Assembly: GCF_014196845.1 (NCBI RefSeq)
Contig: NZ_JACIEM010000001.1
Span: 186,001-250,000, forward strand
Direction of reading: 5' to 3'
Source of the DNA: Aurantimonas endophytica
Lineage (GTDB): Bacteria > Pseudomonadota > Alphaproteobacteria > Rhizobiales > Rhizobiaceae
DNA: 64,000 nt
Shown: piece after piece, positions 49,330-63,177 of the stretch
Numbering within the stretch: the first letter of the stretch is position 1
How the letters are laid out: each line of letters starts with the position of its first letter
The notes under the pieces: generated by a model
The model's input: only the letters and a program-made list of their open reading frames with translations
Database searches by the model: none
What the model was told of the DNA's origin: nothing
Translations under genes and position numbers: made by a program

Positions 49330-49493
49330 CGGTTTTCCTCCCGAGTCAAAGGTTTGGCTCAGAACGTCGGGCGGATGGGATGGATGCGCGGCAGCTCCCG
49401 CGACATTTTGGCGGCGAGGCTAGGCGCCGATATTCAGGAAACCGGATCTCGGTCGCTACGAGCGGTCACGACAGGAAGCGAATGCGTGCAGCC

Positions 49494-50013: not shown

Positions 50014-50177
50014 GCTTCAGCTGACCTCAACTCTCAGCGGCATTTTGGTTTGCCTCAGTTCATCCCGTAAGTGACTGTTTTCACTATGCCGTAGCCTCAG
50101 TAGCGCATTCAGATTGGACGGGATGGCACAATATCTGTGCCGCAGTTGGACGGTCCAAACTGTTCAACTAGGGCAAC

Positions 50178-50203
50178 AAAAAACCCCGCTCGAAGGCGGG
50201 GTT
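50178..50203 (-). terminator. Rho-independent terminator of the transposition operon
   Basis: On the minus strand: stem AACCCCGC / GCGGGGTT (50203-50196 with 50189-50182) with a six-base loop, then a run of six T. It begins 31 bases after the stop of the TniQ gene and closes the tnsA-tniA-tniB-tniQ operon. Confidence 0.85.
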
Positions 50204-50233: not shown

Positions 50234-52066
50234 CTAAGTCGGCGGATTGCCGATGTCGGCGCGGCGATAAAAGCTAGCCGGCACGCAGGCGAAAGCCGGG
50301 TCCGGCTCGACGCCGCGGCCGACCAGTTCCGCCTTCAGCTTCCGGAAATGGACCTCGCGCTGCTTCGCCAAGGAATAGAGCGACACGAAGGACTTGTCGA
50401 AGGCCAGGAGATCGGACTCCAGCACGACGCGTTGCGGACACCGATTCACTGGATTGACGGCGACGGTGCAGGTGAGGAGGCATTGGTCTATGAGCGCCCT
50501 CACGACCTTGGTCGACCAACTCATCCGCTTCTCGACAGTCCTAAGCGACAGCCCGCCGTGGTTCTTCCTCCGCACCAGTGCTTTAACCTCATCGGGGTCG
50601 ACAAGGACGGATAGGTAGCCCCGGCTTTCGCCGTTGATCCCGACGTTCGCCAACCGGCTGTCGAGCAGCAGGCCCACGACCTCCATGGAGGAACAGCTCG
50701 CCCGCTTGGCCGCAGTCGGAATCGGCAAGCCGCCGGAGAGCTCTAGCCTGGCGGACGCCGTGAGCCTTGCAATAAAGTCGTCGAGGTCGGCGCGTCGGAT
50801 TGCGTGCTCCCTCAGGACGTCGGTGCCGCCGGTGACGACTGGATGGATGTAGCCAGCGTCGAACAGTAGGCGCTCGTGGGGGCTCGGCGCGTTCAGATAC
50901 TGTCCGGCACGGATCAGCGACAGCGTGTCAGACAGGGTGGCGAGGCGTGCAGAGACTGCCTCGACAGGAAACAGGACGCGCTCGTCTGACCGACCGGCAT
51001 CTTCTGGTCTGATCATCCCGTCGGCGGCCAGAAGCTTGCGCAGGCGCTTTGGATGCATGCCGTATTCGATCGACGCCGAGTTCAGGGAATGGATCCGCCG
51101 AACCGTCACCTCGCGGCCAAATATGGTCTCGCCGGGGCCGATCGGCATCGTCTCAACGACGTGGCGCTCGACGATGTCGCGGACCTGGTCGTAGACGGGA
51201 TCCACGTTCTCGTGCGCCAGCCACCCGTAGAAGCGCCCGAACATTGCCTTCGGTCCCCAATCGCCCTTTCCGTCGAAGAACGTTTCCTGTAGCGCCGTGA
51301 GCGCCGTGCGGATGCCGTCCTCGCCAGCAGAAGCCGAGGCGAACCCACGGGCACCAGCTTCATGCAGGTCGCGCTCGCCGAGGTCCTCGATCCGTACCTT
51401 GGGCCCGAACGTCATGACGGCGCCGAGGTTCTCCGACAGCCGCATTACGGCGTAGAGGGGAAGCGCGCTAAGGAAGCCTGTGCCCGAACGACCGGCCCAC
51501 AACCGGTCATGCACGTGGGTCTCGAAGGAGGACGGCGTCCGCCGTTCACTCGCGGCATCGATGCCGACGAGGTCGTCGGCCCGTGAGAAGGCGAGGGCGG
51601 CGAAGTCGTGCAGCAACGTCGAATCGTCGGGGTGTGCGATCTCGACCAGTTCCTGCACGTGGATCCGGCACGTGCGGAGGACCGGCACCTGCCAGATGGC
51701 ACGGCCCCATGCCCTGACCTCCGGCTCGAGAGACTCGTCCTCGAGGTCGGCGAGAAGGCAAGACGGGCAGGCGAAGACCCGCCTTCGCCGCAGCGTGCGC
51801 GACCCAAGATGCTCGCCCCTGAGGGACGTGCGGTCGTCGTCGGTCACAGCAGCCCAGCTCCCGAGGGCCGACGGCGAGCAGTCGCCCATCCTGGCGAGGC
51901 TAGCGAGGGCGGCCGGTCGGCCGGCAACGACGCCCGCGAAGTCGAGGCGAACGTCCAAAGCGAAGTCCCGGACGCGGTCGCGGCCGTTGGCCTGCGCGAG
52001 CCGCGAGCCGAAGCTTACTGGGGTCTCGCCGTCGTGCAGCGGAACAGTGATGCTGAGAGCGGCCAT
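50234..52066 (-). CDS. tniQ: TniQ family transposition protein
   Basis: A 610-residue TniQ/TnsD-family protein. The N-terminal TniQ domain (about 1-170) has the zinc-binding pattern CPSCLLADLED ... LRTCRIHVQELVEIAHP with the expected Cys/His ligands. The rest contains several predicted helix-turn-helix-like segments (for example GMHPKRLRKLLAADGMI and SWSTKVVRALIDQCLL). TniQ proteins choose the target site and contact the AAA+ regulator. At 610 residues it is longer than the short TniQ of CRISPR-linked elements and closer to sequence-specific TnsD-like types. It is the last gene of the operon, two bases after tniB. Confidence 0.9.
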   Translation of the reverse strand: MAALSITVPLHDGETPVSFGSRLAQANGRDRVRDFALDVRLDFAGVVAGRPAALASLARMGDCSPSALGSWAAVTDDDRTSLRGEHLGSRTLRRRRVFACPSCLLADLEDESLEPEVRAWGRAIWQVPVLRTCRIHVQELVEIAHPDDSTLLHDFAALAFSRADDLVGIDAASERRTPSSFETHVHDRLWAGRSGTGFLSALPLYAVMRLSENLGAVMTFGPKVRIEDLGERDLHEAGARGFASASAGEDGIRTALTALQETFFDGKGDWGPKAMFGRFYGWLAHENVDPVYDQVRDIVERHVVETMPIGPGETIFGREVTVRRIHSLNSASIEYGMHPKRLRKLLAADGMIRPEDAGRSDERVLFPVEAVSARLATLSDTLSLIRAGQYLNAPSPHERLLFDAGYIHPVVTGGTDVLREHAIRRADLDDFIARLTASARLELSGGLPIPTAAKRASCSSMEVVGLLLDSRLANVGINGESRGYLSVLVDPDEVKALVRRKNHGGLSLRTVEKRMSWSTKVVRALIDQCLLTCTVAVNPVNRCPQRVVLESDLLAFDKSFVSLYSLAKQREVHFRKLKAELVGRGVEPDPAFACVPASFYRRADIGNPPT

Positions 52067-52068
52067 GG

Positions 52069-53196
52069 TCAGTTCTCCTTCTTCTTGCGACGACGACGGC
52101 CGCGGAGCGCGGCGGCCCGTTCGGCGAGAGCCTGCATCACCTGCACCCGGGCCAGTTCCTGATCACGCAAGAGCGCGTTCAGCGGGTGGATCTCGTGCCA
52201 GGTCCGAGACGACATGACGTTCTGCTCGGGCTTGCAGCCGGAAAAGAGCTCGTACGAGCGGACGAAGTGCCCGTGGTCCACCTGCGTGGCCTCAATGTTG
52301 TCGACCAAAGCTTGCTCGACGGCGCCGCGCACGATCTGGGTGAGGGCACCGAATTGGCGGTTTGCCCCGTGGCAGAGACGTCCGAGGTAGGTGTCAGTCA
52401 CAGTGAAGCCGAACGTCATCTCCGCATGGCTCTCGACGATGGTCTTCACAATCCAGGCCACAAGTTCGTTGTCCCGCGGAAGCGAGAGGTTCTCGAGGTG
52501 GACCTTGTGGGTGCGGCGCGAGATCTGGCCGTAGATCGTCATAAAGTCCGCGAGCTCGGGCATCCCGGTCAGGATAAAGCTGACCGGCCAGTCGGCCTGC
52601 TCCATGACCATCTTGAGCGCATCGGCGAGTTCCTCCATGGCATCGGGGTCGCCCATGTTCAGCATGTGCTGCGCTTCGTCGATGTGGATGAAGCGAACCT
52701 GGCGGACCTTCAACTGACGGCGCACCATCCGCCACGCTGCCGGCGCCTTCAGCTCCCGCTCCAGAGGATACTCAAGCTGTTCCAGCAGCACGTAAGCGAT
52801 TTCGAGCAGGTCGGACGGACGCGGAGCCTTGATGGCCACGAGCGGCTTGGTGACGGTCATACCTGTCGTCCGCGGCTGGAATTCCTTCCGTTCCGCGATC
52901 AGGCGGGCGATGAGGCGGGACTTGCCCGCCCCCGTGTCTCCGATGAGAGCAAGTCCTCGCCGCTCGATCTGGTATCCGTCGACGGAAACGGACGCGTTCC
53001 CGACGAGCAGATCCACCTCGCTGTTGATCTCCTTGTCGCGCTTGGTCGCGAGGTATCGCGAGTTGATGCTCGCCATGCGCTTCGCACGGCGCAATGCGAT
53101 ATCGCTCATCCGCTCCGCAAGGTCTGCGTCGACGATCTCGATGTCGCCAGGGAAGAAGTCAGTCTTGTCGTCCATGGTGTGGATGCCTTCGATCAT
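52069..53196 (-). CDS. tniB: TniB/TnsC-like AAA+ transposition regulator
   Basis: A 375-residue AAA+ ATPase. Walker A is GDTGAGKSRL (about residue 87-96), Walker B VRFIHIDEAQHML (about 170-182), and sensor-1 region FILTGMPELADF follows. The ATG at 53196 overlaps the stop of tniA (ATGA); an ATG seven codons later is also possible. TniB forms ATP-dependent filaments on DNA that link TniQ-marked targets to the transposase. The Arg/Lys-rich C-terminus (RGRRRRKKKEN) probably contacts DNA or TniQ. Confidence 0.92.
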   Translation of the reverse strand: MIEGIHTMDDKTDFFPGDIEIVDADLAERMSDIALRRAKRMASINSRYLATKRDKEINSEVDLLVGNASVSVDGYQIERRGLALIGDTGAGKSRLIARLIAERKEFQPRTTGMTVTKPLVAIKAPRPSDLLEIAYVLLEQLEYPLERELKAPAAWRMVRRQLKVRQVRFIHIDEAQHMLNMGDPDAMEELADALKMVMEQADWPVSFILTGMPELADFMTIYGQISRRTHKVHLENLSLPRDNELVAWIVKTIVESHAEMTFGFTVTDTYLGRLCHGANRQFGALTQIVRGAVEQALVDNIEATQVDHGHFVRSYELFSGCKPEQNVMSSRTWHEIHPLNALLRDQELARVQVMQALAERAAALRGRRRRKKKEN

Positions 53197-55400
53197 TTGG
53201 AGGACCAGTCGTCTGCGGAACCGAAGCCGCGGCCTTCTTCGTTGCTGAAGTCGTCGTCACTCGCCGCGTGCGTGTCTGAGCCGAGAGCGAGCATCGTCTC
53301 GGCCTGGCGCGCGAGTTCCTCGGGAAGCTGGAGGTCATCGCCGTAGGCACCGTCGTCGGCGAAGGCGAACGACTGGAAGAGCACCTTCTCCCAGTGGTCG
53401 AACGTCTGCGAAGTGACGATCGGATTGGCGATTTCCGCCCGCTCGACCGCAGCGGCGGCACCCCCGCTCAGCGTCCGCACGGCGCCGAGCACGTAGTGGC
53501 GCGACAGCGCCGCCAGATGCTCGTTGCGCTCGCGGAGGTCACGCACCGTCTCCGCCCACTGCCAGATGCTGACGTTCTGGAGACCGTCGAACCGGGCGTT
53601 GCAAACGATCCAACCTCCCTTCTCGTTCCGCACCGAGATGCTCGACAAATCCCAGCGGTCGACGCGGATTTCGATCGGTCTCTGGCCCATCTGGCGGCGT
53701 AGGATCTGAAGCGCCGGCGACTGGAACCGGATGCCCAAGAAGCGGATGCCTTCCTCGCCGATGCGGCGCTCGCACGTGATGCCCATGACGTGGCGCATCA
53801 CGTCGCGATCCGGAGGAAGGGGGAGGCCATAGACGCCGCTCAGGCGGCGCATGCAGTCATACGGTGTCTCGCCGTTCAGGCCCTCGTGCGGGTGGTGGTG
53901 GTAGAGGTCGAGGACGCCCGTCAGGAAGAATCGGTTGAGCTCTTCCACGTTTAACGAGGCATCCGCCTGGGCATCGTACTTCCCCTTTTCGACGATGTTT
54001 GAGAAGGTCTGCCCGGTGAAGAAGGCCGCAATCTTTGTCTTCAACGTGCCAAACAAGCGCTCGATTCGCGCCCGCATCTCCGCCAGCCCCGCAGGGGGGT
54101 GGATGGGGAAGATGTTGAGCTGGACCAGGCGGTAGATGATTTCTTCCGAGGTGAGGTTCATGCCGTTGTCCATCGCGATGCCGCGAGGCTTGGCGTGGAG
54201 GTAGGTGCGGCTCGCCCCGACATGGTCGGAGATGCGCGACTTGTCGGTCATCGCGAGCTCGATGGTCGACAGAGCGCTCTCGATGCACGGAGCCCCCTCG
54301 AGGAACCGCATGGCGACGATCATGCGAGTGCGTGCGTCGATCGCCACTGACAGCCAGAGGCGCTTGCGCTCGACCAGCGCACGGGTCTCCTCGTCGAGGA
54401 GGGCCCATACGCCCGCGTCGACCATGATCTTCATCAGGCTGACCATCCACTCGTCCACCTCTAGGCGCTCGAACGGCTTCTCGACATCGAGGCCCGTGGT
54501 GACGATGCCCCAGCGACGGAGTGCCACTTCGGGACCGAGACGACCGAGATCCACGAAGAAAGGATCGAGGGCGTCGATCATCATCTCGAACGCGCGCCGC
54601 TTCAGGCGGCGGAGCGGCTCGAAGCCTCGCTCGGCACGCTTACCGTCCTCATCGTTGAGCGCGATCTCGAGCAATTCGAACTGCTTGGCCTTTGTCGGCC
54701 GGGTCCTGCTGGCGTACTCGGTCGCAAACTTGGCATGCAACGTGTACGACTCCGAGCAGAGCGCCGTGCGCATCTTCCCGGGTCCGTTGTACTGGTTGAT
54801 CAGGCAGTCAAGCGTATAGCCGCCCTTCTCGTAACGCCTCACCCAGCGGCGAAGCTGCGTTGCGCTCGGTGGACTGGTCCCTTCTGTCGGAGTGCCGCCA
54901 CGCGCCTTCTTCAAGTTGTTGGCCTCGCGGTAGCGCTTGTCGGCAGCTTCCGCGTCGGCCTTGAACTTCTCTTCGATCAGCTTGATGGCAAGTCCCATCT
55001 TGGCGTCGGAACGGCGGATGCTTCGGTTCTTGTGCGCCAAGGCAAGGTAGGCGTCGCACCAAGCCTTCTTTTTGATGACCACCTTCGCCTGCGGCTTGGT
55101 GAGGTCGCCAAACCTCTTGCGCTTGCCGCCGGCGAGGCGGAGGGCCGCTTTGACCTCCGCGAAGAAGCCCTCATTGATGCGGATCGCGTCCGTCTGGATG
55201 AGGTGGTCGAGGTGCTCGTGCGTCAGCGTCTCGCAAAACAGCAGGTCGTCCACCCGGGTGATCTTGTGACCGCCGGGGAGGCGCTCGCCGTAGACGTACT
55301 CGACGCTCCCGGCACCGTTGGCGCTGCCGATGACCAACCTGCTGCGGGGGGCGATGTCGTAGATCGGCACGGCCTCTTGGATTTTGGTGATCGCATTCAT
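53193..55400 (-). CDS. tniA: TniA/TnsB-like DDE transposase (Mu C-terminal domain)
   Basis: A 735-residue DDE transposase. N-terminal helix-turn-helix domains (about 60-240; SATQLRRWVRRYEKGGYTLD) bind transposon ends. The RNase H-fold core has acidic residues in RLEVDEW and AIDARTRMIV, GIAMDNGMNL and the glutamate in ARIERLFGTLKTK. The Mu-transposase C-terminal beta-barrel follows (about 540-620), and the tail should contact TniB. It breaks and joins the 3' ends of the element. A good ribosome site (AAGGAGAACGACC) precedes the ATG, and the gene overlaps tniB by four bases. Confidence 0.93.
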   Translation of the reverse strand: MNAITKIQEAVPIYDIAPRSRLVIGSANGAGSVEYVYGERLPGGHKITRVDDLLFCETLTHEHLDHLIQTDAIRINEGFFAEVKAALRLAGGKRKRFGDLTKPQAKVVIKKKAWCDAYLALAHKNRSIRRSDAKMGLAIKLIEEKFKADAEAADKRYREANNLKKARGGTPTEGTSPPSATQLRRWVRRYEKGGYTLDCLINQYNGPGKMRTALCSESYTLHAKFATEYASRTRPTKAKQFELLEIALNDEDGKRAERGFEPLRRLKRRAFEMMIDALDPFFVDLGRLGPEVALRRWGIVTTGLDVEKPFERLEVDEWMVSLMKIMVDAGVWALLDEETRALVERKRLWLSVAIDARTRMIVAMRFLEGAPCIESALSTIELAMTDKSRISDHVGASRTYLHAKPRGIAMDNGMNLTSEEIIYRLVQLNIFPIHPPAGLAEMRARIERLFGTLKTKIAAFFTGQTFSNIVEKGKYDAQADASLNVEELNRFFLTGVLDLYHHHPHEGLNGETPYDCMRRLSGVYGLPLPPDRDVMRHVMGITCERRIGEEGIRFLGIRFQSPALQILRRQMGQRPIEIRVDRWDLSSISVRNEKGGWIVCNARFDGLQNVSIWQWAETVRDLRERNEHLAALSRHYVLGAVRTLSGGAAAAVERAEIANPIVTSQTFDHWEKVLFQSFAFADDGAYGDDLQLPEELARQAETMLALGSDTHAASDDDFSNEEGRGFGSADDWSSK

Positions 55401-55416: not shown

Positions 55417-56268
55417 TCAGTTAAGCGCGGTGGGAGTGAGGGCAGGGCGCAAAAGCGTGGCGGCTGTCAGCCGCTCGCGCTGGACGAAGTCGAGGATCCC
55501 GTCGTCGACGAGACACAGGATGGCCGTGCGGCCACGGGGTCCGAGGCGCAGTGCTTCGACGAGGTCATGGAACATCACGCCGCAGCGGATCCGTTTCACG
55601 AACTCTCCGGCGACGGCGACGTCGGACGCGTTGCGGTGCTCCCGCGAGTCCAGGATCTCGTTGGCGTTGTGCAGCCGAGCCTTCGTGATGAAGCGCTCGG
55701 TGACGATGACTGCGGCGTCGGCGAACCCGGCGAGGCTCTGTTCGCGGATGCAACGGATCGCCATATCGAGCTTCTCGTCGACCTTTGCCTCCGGACGCAC
55801 GGCATAGGCGATGACAGAACCGTCCGGCTCCTCGACCAGGAAGTCGAAGGTGTGCGAACCGTCGGAGCCGTCCGGACGGACAAAGTGGCGAGCGGGCGGC
55901 TGGTCGAAGATGCGGCCGAAACGGTTCTCCTCTCGCTTGATCCGCAGGAACGCGAATTCGATCATCGACTCCGTGACCTTCTCGCGGTTCTCGATCAGGT
56001 CGTTCATGCGAAGCCTGAAGGAGCGCTTCGTGCGGCGCACGGGGATCCGCGACGCGGAGGTCGGCTCACAGCCGAACCAGACCAGCTCGTCGCGACGTTG
56101 CCGTCCAAGAAGGAGGTGGTCGACCACTTCTCCCTCGACCGTCTCGAAACGGCCTGTCGTGGTTCGATCGGGCGCGAGGTAGATCGGGCCGTCCGGCAAC
56201 GGCTTGTCGTACGAGCTGATGCCGAGGCGCCGCTCGCGGAGATGCTGGATGACGTGCCTCTCGCTCAA
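55417..56268 (-). CDS. tnsA: TnsA-like endonuclease with shared N-terminal module
   Basis: A 283-residue protein starting at a TTG (SERHVIQHLRERRLGISSYD after the start). Residues about 100-200 resemble TnsA/PD-(D/E)xK nucleases: a glutamate in ESMIEFAFL, aspartate in TFDFLVEEPDG and lysine in VRPEAKV. TnsA cuts the 5' ends of Tn7-like elements, giving cut-and-paste movement. The first 90 residues are not part of classical TnsA: they align without gaps (59 of 90 identical by my count) with the N-terminus of the M41-like peptidase at 57710-58918. It lies 16 bases upstream of tniA and is the first gene of the operon proper. Confidence 0.8.
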   Translation of the reverse strand: MSERHVIQHLRERRLGISSYDKPLPDGPIYLAPDRTTTGRFETVEGEVVDHLLLGRQRRDELVWFGCEPTSASRIPVRRTKRSFRLRMNDLIENREKVTESMIEFAFLRIKREENRFGRIFDQPPARHFVRPDGSDGSHTFDFLVEEPDGSVIAYAVRPEAKVDEKLDMAIRCIREQSLAGFADAAVIVTERFITKARLHNANEILDSREHRNASDVAVAGEFVKRIRCGVMFHDLVEALRLGPRGRTAILCLVDDGILDFVQRERLTAATLLRPALTPTALN

Positions 56269-56349
56269 TGCCGTGCTCCCCGGTTCGCAGTGTCGCGGTG
56301 GAGCAGGGAAGGCAGAGGTCCTCGCCGTCCCGCGGAAGTGACGTTTCCG

Positions 56350-56801
56350 TTAGCTGCATGGCTCGACCTCGCGATCGGACACAGCCGTCGGCAACTCGCG
56401 GCAGAGCCAGCGGCCGTTGATGAGGGTCGGGAAGTCGTCGTCATCCACGGGAAGCAACAGCGACGACGGGTGCTGGCCGTGACCACTTCTCTGTTCGTCG
56501 CGTCGTCGACAAAGGCGCTACGGGACGAGGCCTTCGACCGGAGCGGTGGACGGATGGTGGCGCGGGAGGTCAGCGGCGGTGTCACAATTGACGAGCGCCG
56601 GATGTGGTCGTGCGTGCCTACAGGCACGACCTCCATGTGGGAGGCGGCCGGGAGCTGGTGACGGAAAAACCTCTCATCGAGAAAGTCCGGGAAGTCGTCC
56701 TCGTCGCTGGGCAGGAGGATCACCCTCTCCAGGTCGGCGAACGGAGAGCGGCTTGGGAATAGCACCCGCACCCAGGTGGTCTGCTCATAGTGGCGAATCA
56801 T
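56350..56801 (-). pseudogene. Acidic tandem-repeat protein gene with one frameshift
   Basis: From the ATG at 56801 (ribosome site GAGGAGACTTGTC) the frame encodes MIRHYEQTTWVRVLFPSRSP then ERVILLPSDEDDFPDFLDE and RFFRHQLPAASHMEVVPVG. About 60 codons on, a one-base shift near AGCACCCGTCG restores a second, similar unit: SSLLLPVDDDDFPTLINGRW, LCRELPTAVSDREVEPCS, stop at 56350. The two units share LLPxDxDDFP and a spaced LPxAxxxxEV.P pattern, so this is a two-repeat protein of about 150 residues. It precedes the tnsA-like gene by 81 bases. Function unknown. Confidence 0.6.
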
Positions 56802-57388
56802 GACAAGTCTCCTCGTTTCCGCGTCCCGGAGGGAGGCGGATGGCTGGATTTTCGGAGTTCGGATTTGGTCAAAGCTTCGCCGTCACGCCGTCCTGAGGGG
56901 CGGCGGGTCACTGACGGCGAGGCGTAGGGCGGTCGGCCGGCGGCTAAGGGCCAGCGGAGGGCCTGGCTATAGGCGCGGGCGGACGGCGCGCAGCCTCATT
57001 CCGGGCGGGGCTAAGGGTTTGCTTGCTGTCGCGCGGCGGCGCCGCTTGCGTTACCGGGTTGACCCGGGATAGTGCTGACATGGCACAGGGTTCCTGTCGG
57101 GCGCGTGAGCGTCCCGCTGGTTCTCGTAAGGGCGAAAGCCCGGTGAAGAGAGGCGCATCTTCCTGGTAGTCGGCGCGCTTCTCGGGCCCCCCGATGGGGG
57201 CTGCAACTTCTGTGTCCGGGCCCGGTAGTTCAGCCGGGTCCGGCGCTCGGCTCCTTGTGGCGCATCTTGTTGCCCTATGGAGCGGCGGGCGACGATGTGC
57301 CGCCTCGATCGGAATCGCACTCCCCGCCGTTTCTTGCAACAGCAACCTCGCTCATCGGAAAACCGGGAAATTCCTCGAAAAAATTGAC
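56802..57388. other. Stretch with only short, unconvincing frames
   Basis: About 590 bases between two damaged small genes of the transposon flank. Minus-strand short frames exist (26 residues from MSEVAVARNGGECDSDRGG; a longer GTG frame ending CQHYPGSTR), but none has a good ribosome site and protein-like length. Probably remnants of further small genes. Confidence 0.4.
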
Positions 57389-57684
57389 TTAGATCGAGTT
57401 TGAGTGTTCGCGCGAGATGGCCGAATCGATCGGCGGGCGCAGGGTCCTGACGATCGGCTCATCCGGTCGAAAATCGCCGTTCCAAGGCATGCCGGCGGTG
57501 AAGCCGGAGAGTGGCGAGAAGGTCTCCACCGATAGCTCGCCGACGCGCTTGGTCGCCCATTTAGCGCGACCTCACCTTCGGGCCTCAAACAGGGTCTCAA
57601 GGAATCGCGTCGGCCCCCAACGGGCGCCGCGGACGCATCGCGGGCGTCGCCCCCTCCGCCTACCCTGTCAACAATCCTGGACAT
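57389..57684 (-). pseudogene. Small gene with a frameshift and an in-frame stop
   Basis: An ATG at 57684 starts MSRIVDRVGGGGDARDASAA. A one-base shift in a G5 run restores PTRFLETLFEARR, then a TGA, and the same frame continues GRAKWATKRVGELSVETFSP, LSGFTAGMPWNGDFRPDEPI and VRTLRPPIDSAISREHSNSI before a TAA at 57389. The text after the TGA is clearly protein-like, so this is one gene of about 97 codons with two lesions. It is 25 bases downstream of the M41-like peptidase gene, on the same strand. Function unknown. Confidence 0.55.
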
Positions 57685-57709
57685 CACGCTGCCTCTCCCG
57701 GTCCGGCCA

Positions 57710-58918
57710 CTAATCGAGTCCTTCAAAGTGCCGACGACGTAGGCGAATAGATTGTCGCCTGATGTGTCCGCGATCCGTCCCGACGTGGTTCGAGACGGGC
57801 AAGACGAATCCTATTTTTATCACCTTCGCCTTGGGGAGTGGGGACAGGACCGAGATCGGCGGTCCGAGCGGGTTAAAAGGATTCATCAACTGCGCCGGTG
57901 CGATCGCGAACCTCGCTACAGAGGCCGCCTCGACACCCTCTAGCGGCTCTCTTCCCGAGCTCGGAGTATGCCGTCCGTCCGCGACTTCTACGTCGTGCTT
58001 GACGTTCTGCGGTCGGCTGGCCGACAGATCCGCAGACCCCGCCGACAGATCCGCCGACCCGGCTGACAGATCCGCCAACCCGGTCGGCGGAGCCTCGGTG
58101 GTTGGCTCGCTCTGACCATGTTGCGCCTCGAACCTCCCTGTCGCAGCCAGCGAGGCCTGCACGAACCCTAGCCGAATAGATTCCTGGCCACCGATTTTTT
58201 CGGCCTCCCCGTAGGCGCGAATGAGGTAACGGAGTACCACAAACGCGAGATCGGCATCCGAGGCGAGAATGCGGGAGATGTCCGACTCATCGGAAGCGAT
58301 GGCGTGGAGCATGCTCCCCCCGTGGCCGAACGAAGCTTCGATCAGGACGGCGAGCCTCGTCGTTGGATCGAAGTCGCTGCCGATCGGTCCGCCGCATCCG
58401 GCTCCTCGGCATCCCGCCACGGGTTCCTCGGCGGCTGCTCCCGCGAGGAGGATCGCGATCTCCGCCATGTAGCTGTCCCTCGTCTGATCGAGACCCTCCT
58501 CCCGAACGAACTCTGTCAGAACTCCCGTTTGTCCGGTCACCTCACTGGCAACGCTCGCGACAATCGGAACGCACCCGCTCCGATCGGCGAGTGCCAGGCC
58601 GACGACGTAGTGCCCGGCCTCGTGAACGCACGCTCGGCGGAACAGTGCGTCGGACATCCGGACGCGGAAGAAGCGCTTCGTGCGTCGCGCCGGGATGCGG
58701 GACGCCGAGGTCGGCTCGCAGCCGAACCAGACGAAGTTCTCGCGCTCGCCGGCGCCCGGCATGGTGCGCCCGAGCGGCTTTCCGGCGACGGTCTCAGAGC
58801 GCCCGGGGCAGTTCATGTCCGGAGCCAGGTACACCGGAAACTCGGGCAGGGGCTTGTCGTAGGAACTGATGCCGAGACGGCGTTCGTGCAGGTGCTGAAT
58901 GATGTTCTTCTCGCTCAC
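57710..58918 (-). CDS. FtsH-like (M41) peptidase domain fused to the TnsA N-terminal module
   Basis: A 402-residue protein from a GTG start. Residues 1-90 are the module shared with the TnsA-like nuclease. A zinc-peptidase domain follows (about 92-265): HEXXH appears as H99-EAG-H103 in CVHEAGHYVVGLAL, and the third-ligand region is GSDFDPTTRLAVLI, together with AEIAILLAGAAAEE, which matches the M41 pattern of FtsH. No AAA+ ATPase domain or membrane helix is present. The C-terminal 130 residues are low-complexity, with three copies of a SADLSAG-like heptad (21-bp DNA repeat). It lies upstream of the transposition operon. A role in regulating the transposition proteins by cleavage is an inference. 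Confidence 0.75.
   Translation of the reverse strand: MSEKNIIQHLHERRLGISSYDKPLPEFPVYLAPDMNCPGRSETVAGKPLGRTMPGAGERENFVWFGCEPTSASRIPARRTKRFFRVRMSDALFRRACVHEAGHYVVGLALADRSGCVPIVASVASEVTGQTGVLTEFVREEGLDQTRDSYMAEIAILLAGAAAEEPVAGCRGAGCGGPIGSDFDPTTRLAVLIEASFGHGGSMLHAIASDESDISRILASDADLAFVVLRYLIRAYGEAEKIGGQESIRLGFVQASLAATGRFEAQHGQSEPTTEAPPTGLADLSAGSADLSAGSADLSASRPQNVKHDVEVADGRHTPSSGREPLEGVEAASVARFAIAPAQLMNPFNPLGPPISVLSPLPKAKVIKIGFVLPVSNHVGTDRGHIRRQSIRLRRRHFEGLD
58021..58083. repeat. Three tandem 21-bp repeats inside the peptidase gene
   Basis: Units at 58021-58041, 58042-58062 and 58063-58083 share GACAGATCCGC and differ at a few positions. They encode the heptad repeats (ADLSAGS-like) in the C-terminal tail of the M41-like protein. 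In-frame length suggests slipped-strand expansion in coding sequence, not a CRISPR array. Confidence 0.85.
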
Positions 58919-58961: not shown

Positions 58962-59105
58962 TCATCGACCGGGCTCGCAAGGGGCCCGACCGCCTTCGAC
59001 GGGCGGACGCAAGCGTCCGCCGGCTACGGGCGAGAGGTGCGTGACGTCGCGGACCAGGAGACCGCGGAGCCGGCGGGAGGCGATTGTGTTGAGCTGATGC
59101 ATCAT
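58962..59105 (-). CDS. Small ORF with strong ribosome site upstream of the peptidase gene
   Basis: A 47-residue frame starting MMHQLNTIASRRLRGLLVRD, with the ribosome site AAAAGGAGGCGACGATC. It is basic and proline-rich towards the end. Its translation start region resembles that of a 23-residue frame at 59566-59637 (MTHAINDTAS, ribosome site AAGGAGGCGAAGCCC) and, less closely, the start of tniA (MNAITKI). It may be a leader peptide or a remnant of a duplicated gene start. Its stop is 43 bases before the GTG of the M41-like gene. Confidence 0.4.
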   Translation of the reverse strand: MMHQLNTIASRRLRGLLVRDVTHLSPVAGGRLRPPVEGGRAPCEPGR

Positions 59106-59249
59106 GATCGTCGCCTCCTTTTTCCTGGGATCTTGGCGAGTGATCCGAGGGTGCTCCGGCGGGATTGCCGGCGACTTTTCTTGGTCTGAGCAACGCGGCG
59201 GTGGTGCCCGCCTACGTCGATGACGTTCCCCGCATACGGGGAAGGTCGG

Positions 59250-59500: not shown

Positions 59501-60067
59501 TTGCGGCACCGGTCATTCTCGTGGGAGCACGACCGTCCGTGACAGGCGGACGAAGGTCCGCAGAGTCAGCCGGCTATGAGGAGGACGCGTGAGGAGGGGC
59601 GAGCGCCGGAGGCGGTATCGTTGATCGCATGCGTCATGGGCTTCGCCTCCTTGTCCTGGGAGCTGTTGCTTGGGACGGGCCCCGAGGGGCCGCACGCGGA
59701 ATTGCGGGCGGTGATATTCGCGGCTGGTTGGCCGCTCGGGGCAGAGTCCCACTTGGATCCGTGCCGGTTGTCGTGGAAGTTGGAGAATCGATCTGCCTTC
59801 GCGAGCCAGATGTAGGCTCGGTAGTCCTGATGGCGGGCGGATCGGAGAGGTGCTGGCTTTACGCTGTGGAGACCGTCGCCCCGTCGGCGAGCGTACCTGC
59901 ACCACGGTCCTGTCGCGCGCCGAAGGGCGTTATGTAGAATCGATCGGGCAAGCTGAGTTCTTCACCAAGGTTGAAATTCTGTCGTGACAGGTTCGCGTGA
60001 ACGACTACTAACCAAGCGGCAGGAGTTTTAACGATCGCCAGATTTTGCGATTAACGGTGCAATTTTT
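59501..60067. other. Stretch without a convincing gene; possible transposon-end sequence
   Basis: About 570 bases. It holds a 23-residue frame with a strong ribosome site (59566-59637) and, before it, a long minus-strand frame without a start codon whose text (YIWLAKADRFSNFHDNRHGS) looks coding, so it may be a gene remnant. At 59980-60060 there is a set of short repeats (TGTCGTGACAGG, CGTGAACGAC, GCGATTAACG) that could be transposase-binding sites. Confidence 0.4.
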
Positions 60068-60694
60068 CTACTCGGCAGAGCGACGACCGCATCGATTATC
60101 CCAATCACCGGTGTCTGGATAAAACACCCCAGGTAAGGGGAAACATCGTGCGATCTCGGCGTAATGACGCCGGTTAAGGGTAGCGATAGCCGCGCCAGCA
60201 GAGATCGCTGTGGCCGCGATGGTCAGTTTCTCGCAGGACACAATGCGATTGGAGCAAGGGTTTGGGATCACGAGGTTGCGGAGAGCAGGGAGCGCGGACA
60301 GGGTCGCACGGACTCTCGCAGCGTCTACGGTCGGCAGCATAATCTGGTAACGGCCGTCGGCCAAGATACCGTCGAGCCGCTGCTCAAATGCCGTAGCGTT
60401 GTTGTTTCCCCTCCGCTTGGCGAGCTCGATGCCGAGCTGAAGCTCGAACACGACACTCCATGGAATGCGAAGGGCACTGTTCGGTACTTCCTTTAACCAA
60501 GCGACAACTCCAGGATCCGGGACGGGCTTCGTGAATTGCGAGACTACGCACGTGTCGAGGAGAAAAAGAATTGGCTGAGCCGCCTCGGCTTGGTTCCGCT
60601 TGTGGTCCAATGGGAGTCCCAGCCAAGGCTCGAAAATCGATCGGATAACGTGGTCGATCGGAGATCTGGGAAAAGGGGTTCGAATGCTATGCAT
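60068..60694 (-). CDS. PIN-domain (VapC-like) protein
   Basis: A 208-residue protein. The ATG at 60694 has a very good ribosome site (AAGGAGCCAAGC), so earlier in-frame starts are not used. A 40-residue lead precedes a PIN domain: the first catalytic aspartate is in FLLDTCVVSQFT, the glutamate in VVFELQLGIELAKRR; the usual third acidic residue is replaced in CEKLTIAATAISAGAAIATL (Glu) and the fourth position is NRRHY. PIN proteins are RNases, often VapC toxins. No antitoxin gene is adjacent. Codon use and base composition around it are less GC-rich than in the rest of the window. Confidence 0.8.
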   Translation of the reverse strand: MHSIRTPFPRSPIDHVIRSIFEPWLGLPLDHKRNQAEAAQPILFLLDTCVVSQFTKPVPDPGVVAWLKEVPNSALRIPWSVVFELQLGIELAKRRGNNNATAFEQRLDGILADGRYQIMLPTVDAARVRATLSALPALRNLVIPNPCSNRIVSCEKLTIAATAISAGAAIATLNRRHYAEIARCFPLPGVFYPDTGDWDNRCGRRSAE

Positions 60695-61793
60695 GCTTGG
60701 CTCCTTCATGGGGACGCAGTTGAAAGTTGCGTTCACCCGGACAGTCACGTCACGTTTGGTCTTTAATGGGAGTCGAGAGGCGCGATGCCGAATGCTATGT
60801 AAAATTTATCGTCGTTCGTCAGAAGTGATTATCACCAGATGAAAATCATAAACTTCCAGATCAGCGTGAGTGATTTAAGGGAATACATACTATAGCCATA
60901 GGGGTGTATTCGCGTTGGCTGCGTTCTCGGTCGTTTATTCGGAGATAGATTGGTTGGGCGTTGCGATAACCTGATGGAAGCAGACAATTTTCACGATGTC
61001 GAGCCCTCGCGTGATAGAGGCTCGGTCAGCAAAAAAGGCGAAATAGGCGCGTCCCCGGGGACAAGTTGGACAGCTCGGACATCGATGAAACACGGATTCC
61101 GGGGTTCGCGCGAATACTTCGGATCGGTTGCGACCACTCGATGAAACGGGGTTGGGATCAGAGTGGCTCGAACGCGCAGCCCTCGTTCAATCAAGGTGGC
61201 AGGACACGCTCGACACTGAAGTGAAGGGGGGCCCGAATGATTGTACCGACCACGACGGGTGCCATGCGGATCGTCAACTGCGCCCAAGCTGAAGGCCTCG
61301 TAGTCCACTCGCGAGCCACAGTTGTCTTGGCTTGTCCCCGGGGCGGGGGCAGACGATATTTGGAATGGAGATTATCGGTAGCTGTCTACAAAGCCGCTGT
61401 TTTGGGTAAGCGCAATACCGATTTGGTCAAAGGATAACGTGGCCCGCGGGTACCGTCATACTGCCTTTGCTGACGATGCAGCCGCGATCGAGGCTGATGG
61501 CCGAGAGGCGCAACACGCGCGGATCTCAGCGACATAATTTCAGATCGCGCCGTCGAGCATGCAGGCGAGGTGCCGACTAACGTCGTCGACGAGCGCGTGT
61601 GAGAAGCACGCTGCTTCACATCCACGAGGAGGGCGTAAAAGCCCGCTTACAATTTGCGGTTCGACGGCCGATGCTGAGCCAGAAGCTCCTTTTGTTCCGG
61701 CGAGCGCAGAGGCAGGCTTGGGCTTCGCAGGCCCCAGGTTGTCATCTGCCCATTTGTTGCTACCTTAAGGACAAATGTCATCGGAGATAAGCG
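60695..61793. other. AT-richer stretch without a recognised gene
   Basis: About 1.1 kb between the PIN-domain gene and the toxin-antitoxin pair. The part near 60760-60960 is clearly richer in A and T than its surroundings, which suggests recently acquired DNA. Short frames (up to 105 residues) lack ribosome sites and protein-like composition. The promoter of the antitoxin gene must lie at its right end. Confidence 0.45.
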
Positions 61794-62207
61794 ATGGTGA
61801 ACCTTATTGAGGTCACTTCGGACATCAGCGACTTTGTTCCCGCGCCGATCTCTCAGGTGGAAGGCGCGGCGTCCTTCCGCGCGGCCGTCAACCTGTTCGG
61901 GCGGTGGGAGATCACTGACGAGCAGGCAGCGACGCTCCTCGACATGAACGTTAGGACCTATCGTCGATGGAAGGCGCAGGGGCCAAACGCCATGGGCCGT
62001 GACACCCGGACCCGCCTCTCGATCCTCATGGGCATCCACAAGGCGCTGCGCGTCATCTTCGGGAAGTCGGAGCGGGTGTACCAATGGGTCGGAGCTCCAA
62101 ACGCCCGCTTCGGTGGCAGGACGGCGATCGACGTCATGCTGAACGGGGAGATGACGGATCTTGTCCGCGTGCGCCGCTATCTGGATTCCGAGCGAGGGGC
62201 GTGGTGA
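61794..62207 (+). CDS. Xre/MbcA/ParS-type antitoxin
   Basis: A 137-residue protein of the DUF2384 (MbcA/ParS/Xre toxin-binding) family. An Xre-like helix-turn-helix is seen in WEITDEQAATLLDMNVRTYR (residues about 38-58), and the C-terminal toxin-binding part contains VYQWVGAPNARFGGRTAIDV then MTDLVRVRRYLDSERGAW. It neutralises the RES-domain toxin encoded next and should repress the operon. The ribosome site GGAGATAAGCG precedes the ATG. The stop overlaps the toxin's start. Confidence 0.92.
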   Translation: MVNLIEVTSDISDFVPAPISQVEGAASFRAAVNLFGRWEITDEQAATLLDMNVRTYRRWKAQGPNAMGRDTRTRLSILMGIHKALRVIFGKSERVYQWVGAPNARFGGRTAIDVMLNGEMTDLVRVRRYLDSERGAW

Positions 62208-62908
62208 CTGCTGCGGTGCCCGTCGAGAGGGTGACCTGGAACCGGGCGTGCCGCATCATCCGCAGCGTCTTCCCGCCGATCGACCTGTTCGAGGACATCG
62301 CAGAGCCCGAAGATTGGCCAGCGATCCTCTCTGCCGAGATGAAGACCAACCCGCGGCTCATGGAGTCGGTCGGGGAGCTGGACCGCGTCGATCCCGCGCA
62401 CCGTGTCGGCGGCTCGGGGTCGAGCTACCTGATGGCTCCGTTCACGCACGTGTCTTCCGACCGGGCGAGCCGGTTCTCCGACGGGAGCTTCGGGGTCCTC
62501 TATGTCGGACGCACGTTCGATGTCGCCCTCTCGGAAACCATCCATCACCACGCCGCCTTCATGGCAGCCACAGACGAGCCGGAGAACTGGGACTGCCAGT
62601 TCCGGGAGATCGTCCTCGACGTCGACGCCAAGCTTCATTGCGTAGACGAGGTCTCCCATCGGGAGCTTCTCTGGCTGGACGACTACACCCAAAGCCAGGC
62701 CTTCGCGGTGGCGATGCGCTCGGCGCGCTCGGATGGCATCCGCTACCCCAGCGTCAGGTGCGTCGGCGGGACATGCGCGGCGCTGTTCCGCCCCGACCTC
62801 GCGTCGAATGCCGTCCAGGGCCGTCACCTGGACTATCACTGGAACGGGAGGGAGGTAGATCTCGTGCGGGACCACACGAAGGTAAGGGTGTTCCGCGTCG
62901 TTCGATAG
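62204..62908 (+). CDS. RES-domain toxin (NAD+ phosphorylase)
   Basis: A 234-residue RES-family toxin. A GTG at 62204 overlaps the antitoxin stop (GTGA); a GTG one codon earlier is equally possible. The family residues are visible: the arginine in TWNRACRII, YVGRTFDVALSETIHHH with Tyr and Glu, and the serine in RYPSVRCVGG. RES toxins (MbcT, ParT, Res) break down NAD+ with phosphate or ADP-ribosylate targets, stopping growth unless the antitoxin is present. The pair is a complete type II module and may stabilise the accessory region. Confidence 0.92.
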   Translation: MTAAVPVERVTWNRACRIIRSVFPPIDLFEDIAEPEDWPAILSAEMKTNPRLMESVGELDRVDPAHRVGGSGSSYLMAPFTHVSSDRASRFSDGSFGVLYVGRTFDVALSETIHHHAAFMAATDEPENWDCQFREIVLDVDAKLHCVDEVSHRELLWLDDYTQSQAFAVAMRSARSDGIRYPSVRCVGGTCAALFRPDLASNAVQGRHLDYHWNGREVDLVRDHTKVRVFRVVR

Positions 62909-63177
62909 TTGGCGTCGCGAGGAGCGGCTACTGTACACGCCGGAGAGGATGGTCGTGCTTCTATCAAGTGTCCTTCGAGAGGTGGCCCACGGCCAGGGCT
63001 AGTAGTGCGTTGAGTGGCGCCGTCCGAGGCCTAAGTAAAACACCAGCCCGCGCCGCTCCCGCCGATCGGCAATTATTTCCGATTTGGGTGGAAAGCCGTC
63101 GGGCCGCTTTCGATCCGGATACGTGGGAAAGCTGCCGTCTTGGTCGCCAAGCCATCAGCCGTCAGATGCATCGCTAC

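Follow-up and report, generated by a model that had tools for sequence, protein, structure and literature searches.

A probable chimeric gene joining a TnsA-like N-terminus to an M41 peptidase region in a Tn7-like locus of Aurantimonas endophytica, and the recurrence of AAA+-M41 protease genes beside related operons

A 64,000-nucleotide stretch of Aurantimonas endophytica contig NZ_JACIEM010000001.1 (positions 186,001 to 250,000; hereafter the window) carries a Tn7-like operon with the gene order pep, nuc, tniA, tniB and tniQ, all on the minus strand, in which nuc encodes a TnsA-like nuclease and pep a protein with an M41-like peptidase region. The fusion seen in pep is real in the sequence and probably arose by recombination in one strain. 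The likely explanation, in our judgement, is a chimeric gene formed by illegitimate recombination, in which the start of a second tnsA-type gene, some 88 codons long, was joined to the M41-coding half of a gene for an AAA+-M41 protease. What the data show directly is a sharp switch of similarity within the gene, a few common bases where the parts meet, the lack of an AAA+ domain, the occurrence in a single genome and the recurrence of AAA+-M41 genes beside tni operons.

The initial annotation had reported that the first 90 residues of both proteins align without gaps and share 59 identical positions, and this was reproduced in full, together with the coordinates, both genes lying on the minus strand (the count takes both non-ATG starts, TTG and GTG, as Met). 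The best of 20,000 shuffles reached 16 identities, and only 6 of 90 positions were identical over residues 91-180. At the DNA level the likeness between pep and nuc had a local score of 148, against 30 or less in 100 shuffles, and started at the two start codons; the regions upstream of both genes showed no significant likeness (score 23, equalled by 219 of 500 shuffles). Near codons 87-90 the similarity of pep switches sharply: before them it resembles the TnsA-like gene, after them the M41 part of an AAA+-M41 (FtsH-like) protease. Counted over 10-codon blocks, similarity to nuc was 0.73-0.83 at codons 61-90 and 0.37-0.43 at codons 91-110, while that to the AAA+-M41 gene of genome G088 (locus L103) was 0.30 at codons 61-80, 0.47 at 81-90 and 0.70-0.73 at 91-110. 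The sequences at the join are CGCATGAACGAC in nuc, CGGATGTCCGAC in pep and CGGATGTCGGAC in L103, and at codons 87-90 R-M-x-D and 8 of 12 bases are common to the two parent types.

Beyond the join, pep matched the M41 family at E 3.6e-5 and 24.2 bits (PF01434, cut-off 29.9), with a likewise weak match to FtsH_fam, and it retains the HExxH zinc motif as HEAGH at residues 99-103. Residues 89-261 matched at 44.5% the M41 half of an AAA+-M41 protein encoded in the same genome (C1:307k), and residues 87-262 at 50% that of the G088 protein; a looser match within the own genome extends to residue 332, but through a stop. In the M41 tree, pep grouped with L103 and the own-genome gene at C1:307k (support 0.96), on a long branch. 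No AAA+ motor was found in the pep chain, nor any AAA+ remnant in positions 40001-64000 of the window and 15 kb beyond, where the best match outside pep had an E value of at least 0.16; a PDB search with pep gave no match. After the shared stretch, nuc weakly matches the TnsA family (Pfam PF08722, E 0.047, under the cut-off), a family matched at E up to 0.1 by eight of the nine TnsA-like proteins that we aligned; PDB TnsA was matched only at E 0.96. The TnsA-like and M41-like labels of the initial annotation both hold, with scores of both proteins below curated cut-offs. It should be added that residue 158 of nuc, which we take to be the lysine position of the PD-(D/E)xK site, is R (in VRP) in the window and Antarcticirhabdus nucleases and K in the six other aligned TnsA-like proteins reaching the site; because of this replacement, the activity of both nucleases may be altered.

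The shared stretch had earlier been proposed to be a docking or target-recognition domain bringing nuclease and peptidase to the same partner, a proposal that found no support. In the alignment of the nine TnsA-like proteins its last approximately 25 residues form a segment common to the whole group, aligning with the start of distant members, and the preceding residues vary. Since these residues fall in the common segment, the most fitting reading of the stretch is the N-terminal part of a TnsA-like nuclease rather than a free docking module. An independent docking domain was therefore rejected as the best reading, because the end of the stretch aligns with distant TnsA-like starts and the fusion was seen once. 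AlphaFold models of nuc (predicted local distance difference test score, pLDDT, 37) and of the module alone (pLDDT 43) were too poor for testing a fold. Over 87 codons of the shared stretch, nonsynonymous divergence (dN) between pep and nuc was 0.26 and synonymous divergence (dS) 1.19; the module has evolved under constraint, and its rate is equal in both genes. Either a fusion that has been kept or one formed recently out of a functional gene would agree with this. This purifying constraint, the intact HEAGH and open frame, and the recurrence of protease genes beside such operons would agree with a functional fusion, in which the M41 peptidase would be recruited to a component of the transposition complex through binding by the TnsA N-terminus. 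FtsH-type peptidases require an AAA+ motor, and pep is devoid of one; moreover, the fusion occurs in one genome only, the module is cut inside the segment that aligns across TnsA-like proteins, and its constraint may predate the fusion, so that we hold such a functional docking fusion to be very unlikely.

The fusion was indeed found in one genome only, and it is absent from the closest related element, that of Antarcticirhabdus, whose order is AAA+-M41 gene, small open reading frame (ORF), nuc, tniA, tniB and tniQ. The expectation that the fused pair recurs in related elements was consequently not borne out. Two relatives, Antarcticirhabdus aurantiaca R10 (L038) and a metagenome-assembled genome of Aurantimonadaceae (L037), carry the module, in both cases in the nuclease only, with 52% identity over the module. 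Among 247 genomes of the family, it was convincing in three (the own genome, G102 and G174), and matches in 13 others (E 0.0017-0.01, most with stops) were taken as noise. A pattern scan of 84,980 species genomes yielded 63 stretches and, from these, the two module loci just named, both of nuclease type; the scan relied on two short peptide patterns, which distant forms of the module could escape. No module was found in viral contigs, and P0003 gave no match against plasmids. Searching 297 genomes of the order with nuc added two more matches at E 1e-6 or below, in G354 and G155; as these start at residues 68 and 134, correspondingly, residues 1-67 of nuc are unmatched in both.

What does recur is the unfused protease. 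The order is taken here as Hyphomicrobiales, following the NCBI placement of Antarcticirhabdus. A tniA profile (A4, 7 rows) located 37 places in 30 of its 397 genomes, and up to 20 kb was taken around 35 of them, the other two being the window and G155. Queries of AAA+-M41 type detected such genes by tblastn near many tniA places, and an AAA+-M41 profile (A6; 16 rows, of which tni loci supplied 14) was run on the 30 genomes and G102. From the 30 genomes, the 40 rows scoring 347 bits or higher were retained; rows of 287 bits or less (mostly ordinary FtsH and fragments) and the five rows of G102 were set aside. At 18 of the 37 places an AAA+-M41 gene was no farther than 10 kb from tniA, against 0.28 expected by random placement, the places being partly non-independent (seven genomes contribute two each). 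All 18 linked genes were upstream of tniA and 14 on the same strand; some are broken, e.g., both in G612. Two further places showed a fragment of the M41 side next to a contig end, and in the window the fusion is present instead; the remaining 16 comprised seven on contigs ending less than 3 kb upstream and nine clear absences. A tnsA-like ORF precedes tniA in most of 15 linked loci, as judged by eye. Furthermore, the DNA shared by L157, L161 and L165 takes in the protease gene and stops 0.7-0.8 kb past it. HExxH was present in 17 of 17 linked loci, and AAA and M41 domains stood in one chain, above Pfam cut-offs, in all four tni-linked proteins scanned (L032, L135, L154 and L165). These observations support a link of the AAA+-M41 protease to this Tn7-like group. 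The earlier suggestion of a peptidase tied to tni operons thereby stands in a changed form, as an unfused AAA+-M41 gene recurring just upstream of tnsA-tniA in the order, and not as a fusion.

In the AAA+-M41 proteins of L032, L154, L165 and L031, the AAA part matches PADLOC models for IetA, a defence ATPase (best E 1.4e-27). Directly after the AAA+-M41 gene, the Antarcticirhabdus element (L032, 10709-11062) encodes a DUF6634 protein; such a protein also follows the gene on a Falsirhodobacter plasmid and precedes it by three genes on a Methylorubrum plasmid (plasmid loci L171 and L174).

As for the origin of pep, the chimera could have started from two related elements in tandem. Among the related loci examined in the order, approximately one in two has a gene of the AAA+-M41 parent type just upstream of tnsA-tniA. 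If a deletion ran from within the tnsA of one element into the protease gene of the next, it would produce such a join and leave the order observed. The fusion itself would be a by-product incapable of ATP-driven proteolysis. Several results weigh against this route. A search from 56269 to 15 kb past the window for leftovers of another tniA, tniB or tniQ found none, the best matches being short (for tniB, E 0.008 at about 75.0 kb; for tniQ, E 0.043 at about 71.1 kb), and the tandem intermediate is for this reason only a guess. Clear terminal repeats did not come up, no repeat pair rising above chance. The M41 part of pep does not group with the tni-linked gene of Antarcticirhabdus but with AAA+-M41 genes (L031, L103) around which the 14-15 kb examined are free of tni genes. 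Nor is the module relaxed in pep, its dN to the Antarcticirhabdus nuclease being 0.45 as compared to 0.46 for nuc, and the frame of pep runs uninterrupted through 402 codons, with HEAGH preserved. Together, these points weaken the route by tandem deletion and leave the chimera itself untouched.

Compatible with a chimeric origin, pep may be a decaying pseudogene with little or no translation, to which we give not quite an even chance. Its codon score is 0.00 at residues 161-200 and negative from residue 241 on, where coding signal is absent or nearly so, as compared to 0.18-0.63 throughout nuc, and the long branch of the M41 part points the same way. Against decay speak a codon score of 0.26 at residues 201-240, a tail in which the own reading frame is still the best of six or nearly so, the 402 codons uninterrupted by a stop, the intact HEAGH and, preceding the start codon, an AAAGGA that by eye resembles a Shine-Dalgarno sequence.

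With regard to what the unfused protease does, the ways in which Tn7-like elements stop or restrain transposition are, to our knowledge, poorly known, and a protease gene recurring directly upstream of a nuclease-transposase operon is a concrete candidate for such a function. ClpX disassembles the MuA transposition complex; by analogy, the AAA+-M41 protease might unfold or degrade transposition proteins, or remodel the transposition complex. The analogy goes no further than an AAA+ unfoldase with a DDE transposase complex as its target, ClpX being a host protein with an unrelated peptidase partner. MuA is named as a substrate of ClpX(P) in the abstract of PMC5415555. The more specific idea that the Hyphomicrobiales group has its own AAA+-M41 protease in the transposition core, limiting or disassembling TnsAB/TniB, and that pep is a TnsA-addressed, motor-less regulator or decoy, seems to us unlikely. 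It is possible, though short of probable, that the genes beside tni operons are ordinary island cargo or defence genes gathering at insertion sites and have no role in transposition. Consistent with this, 22 of the 40 AAA+-M41 genes in the 30 tni-bearing genomes are not within 10 kb of tniA, none was found at seven plasmid tnsA loci (5 kb flanks) or at three places outside the order, and annotated tni genes were absent within 8 kb of the eight plasmid AAA+-M41 places viewed, out of 379 matching records (these include ordinary FtsH genes, and the plasmid gene tables are incomplete). The IetA matches also fit a defence function, and tree distances of tniA and AAA+-M41 were uncorrelated (Mantel r -0.05, p 0.69, n=16), leaving co-inheritance of the two unsupported. 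The uniform upstream position of the 18 linked copies, 14 of them on the same strand, and the DNA shared by L157, L161 and L165 that ends shortly beyond the protease gene argue otherwise. The chimera mainly illustrates gene shuffling by such elements; what merits further attention is the AAA+-M41 gene that recurs next to tni operons.

Among known systems, the same tnsA-tniA-tniB-tniQ order belongs to the alphaproteobacterial branch of Tn7-like TnsA-TnsB-TnsC-TniQ elements, annotated on Methylobacterium and Phaeobacter plasmids; in the order sampled here AAA+-M41 often precedes tnsA, and the window has the fusion at that place. Pep resembles FtsH-type AAA+ proteases (M41) in its HEAGH and weak family matches and differs from them in having no AAA+ domain, while three tni-linked proteins (L032, L154 and L165) score 140-169 bits against the FtsH equivalog cut-off of 600. 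Among the matches listed in our literature search, no mention of an M41/FtsH-like protease in Tn7-like elements was found, and a full-text search for TniQ together with FtsH retrieved no paper. In the main text of one survey protease occurs only as a reagent (PMC10293859), and in that of another neither protease nor peptidase appears (PMC8649781). An additional FtsH-type gene on an acquired, mobile genomic island is described for Pseudomonas aeruginosa clone C (PMC6629908), a likeness by description and not by sequence; the abstract does not link that gene to a Tn7-like operon.

Positions of the features are compiled in the table. The DDE transposase, the TnsC-type ATPase and TniQ each exceeded their Pfam cut-offs within one operon. 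The presence of this operon varies among close relatives: seven other genomes of the genus had no long match to it, and the backbone match to genus relatives stops at 49341 (G201) and 49419 (G041). The stretch 3' of tniQ is perhaps a transposase-binding end; no inverted partner for it was found. An 11-base pair, TTGTTGCCCTA at 57267 and 50169, was considered as terminal inverted repeats and rejected, with its score equalled in 162 of 200 shuffles and nine other pairs equal or better in the same scan.

Table. Features of the Tn7-like locus in the 64,000-nt window
Feature	Position	Strand	Remarks
pep, chimeric ORF	57710..58918	-	402 aa, GTG start; TnsA-like N-terminus, M41 peptidase region and tail
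90-residue stretch shared with nuc, in pep (TnsA-like N-terminus)	58649..58918	-	59/90 identical to nuc
pep junction codons 87-90 (R-M-S-D)	58649..58660	-	nuc and L103 protease gene have 8/12 bases in common (CG-ATG---GAC)
pep M41 peptidase region	58094..58654	-	HEAGH at residues 99-103; no preceding AAA+ domain
pep tail	57710..58093	-	weak coding signal; 21-base repeats near 58019-58094
nuc, TnsA-like nuclease	55417..56268	-	283 aa, TTG start
90-residue stretch shared with pep, in nuc	55999..56268	-	59/90 identical to pep
tniA, TnsB-type DDE transposase	53193..55400	-	735 aa; Pfam Mu-transpos_C 2.8e-7
tniB, TnsC-type AAA ATPase	52069..53196	-	375 aa; Pfam TniB 2.8e-17
tniQ	50234..52066	-	610 aa; Pfam TniQ 2e-13
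candidate element end, 3' of tniQ	50036..50202	-	about 150 bases kept in the Antarcticirhabdus element; two ACTGNGGCANA motifs

Elsewhere in the window, positions 61559-63098 hold an Xre/RES toxin-antitoxin pair with flanks, copies of which are present in the own genome (C5:274157, 86% identity) and in G041 (87%), and positions 60068-60748 a weakly PIN/VapC-like ORF (Pfam E 0.039, below the cut-off; NCBIfam E 0.0087). Two 48-base stretches at 59073-59120 and 59605-59652, upstream of pep, are 75% alike; each has a Shine-Dalgarno-like GGAGGCGA and an ATG (read by eye), and they perhaps represent short leader ORFs.

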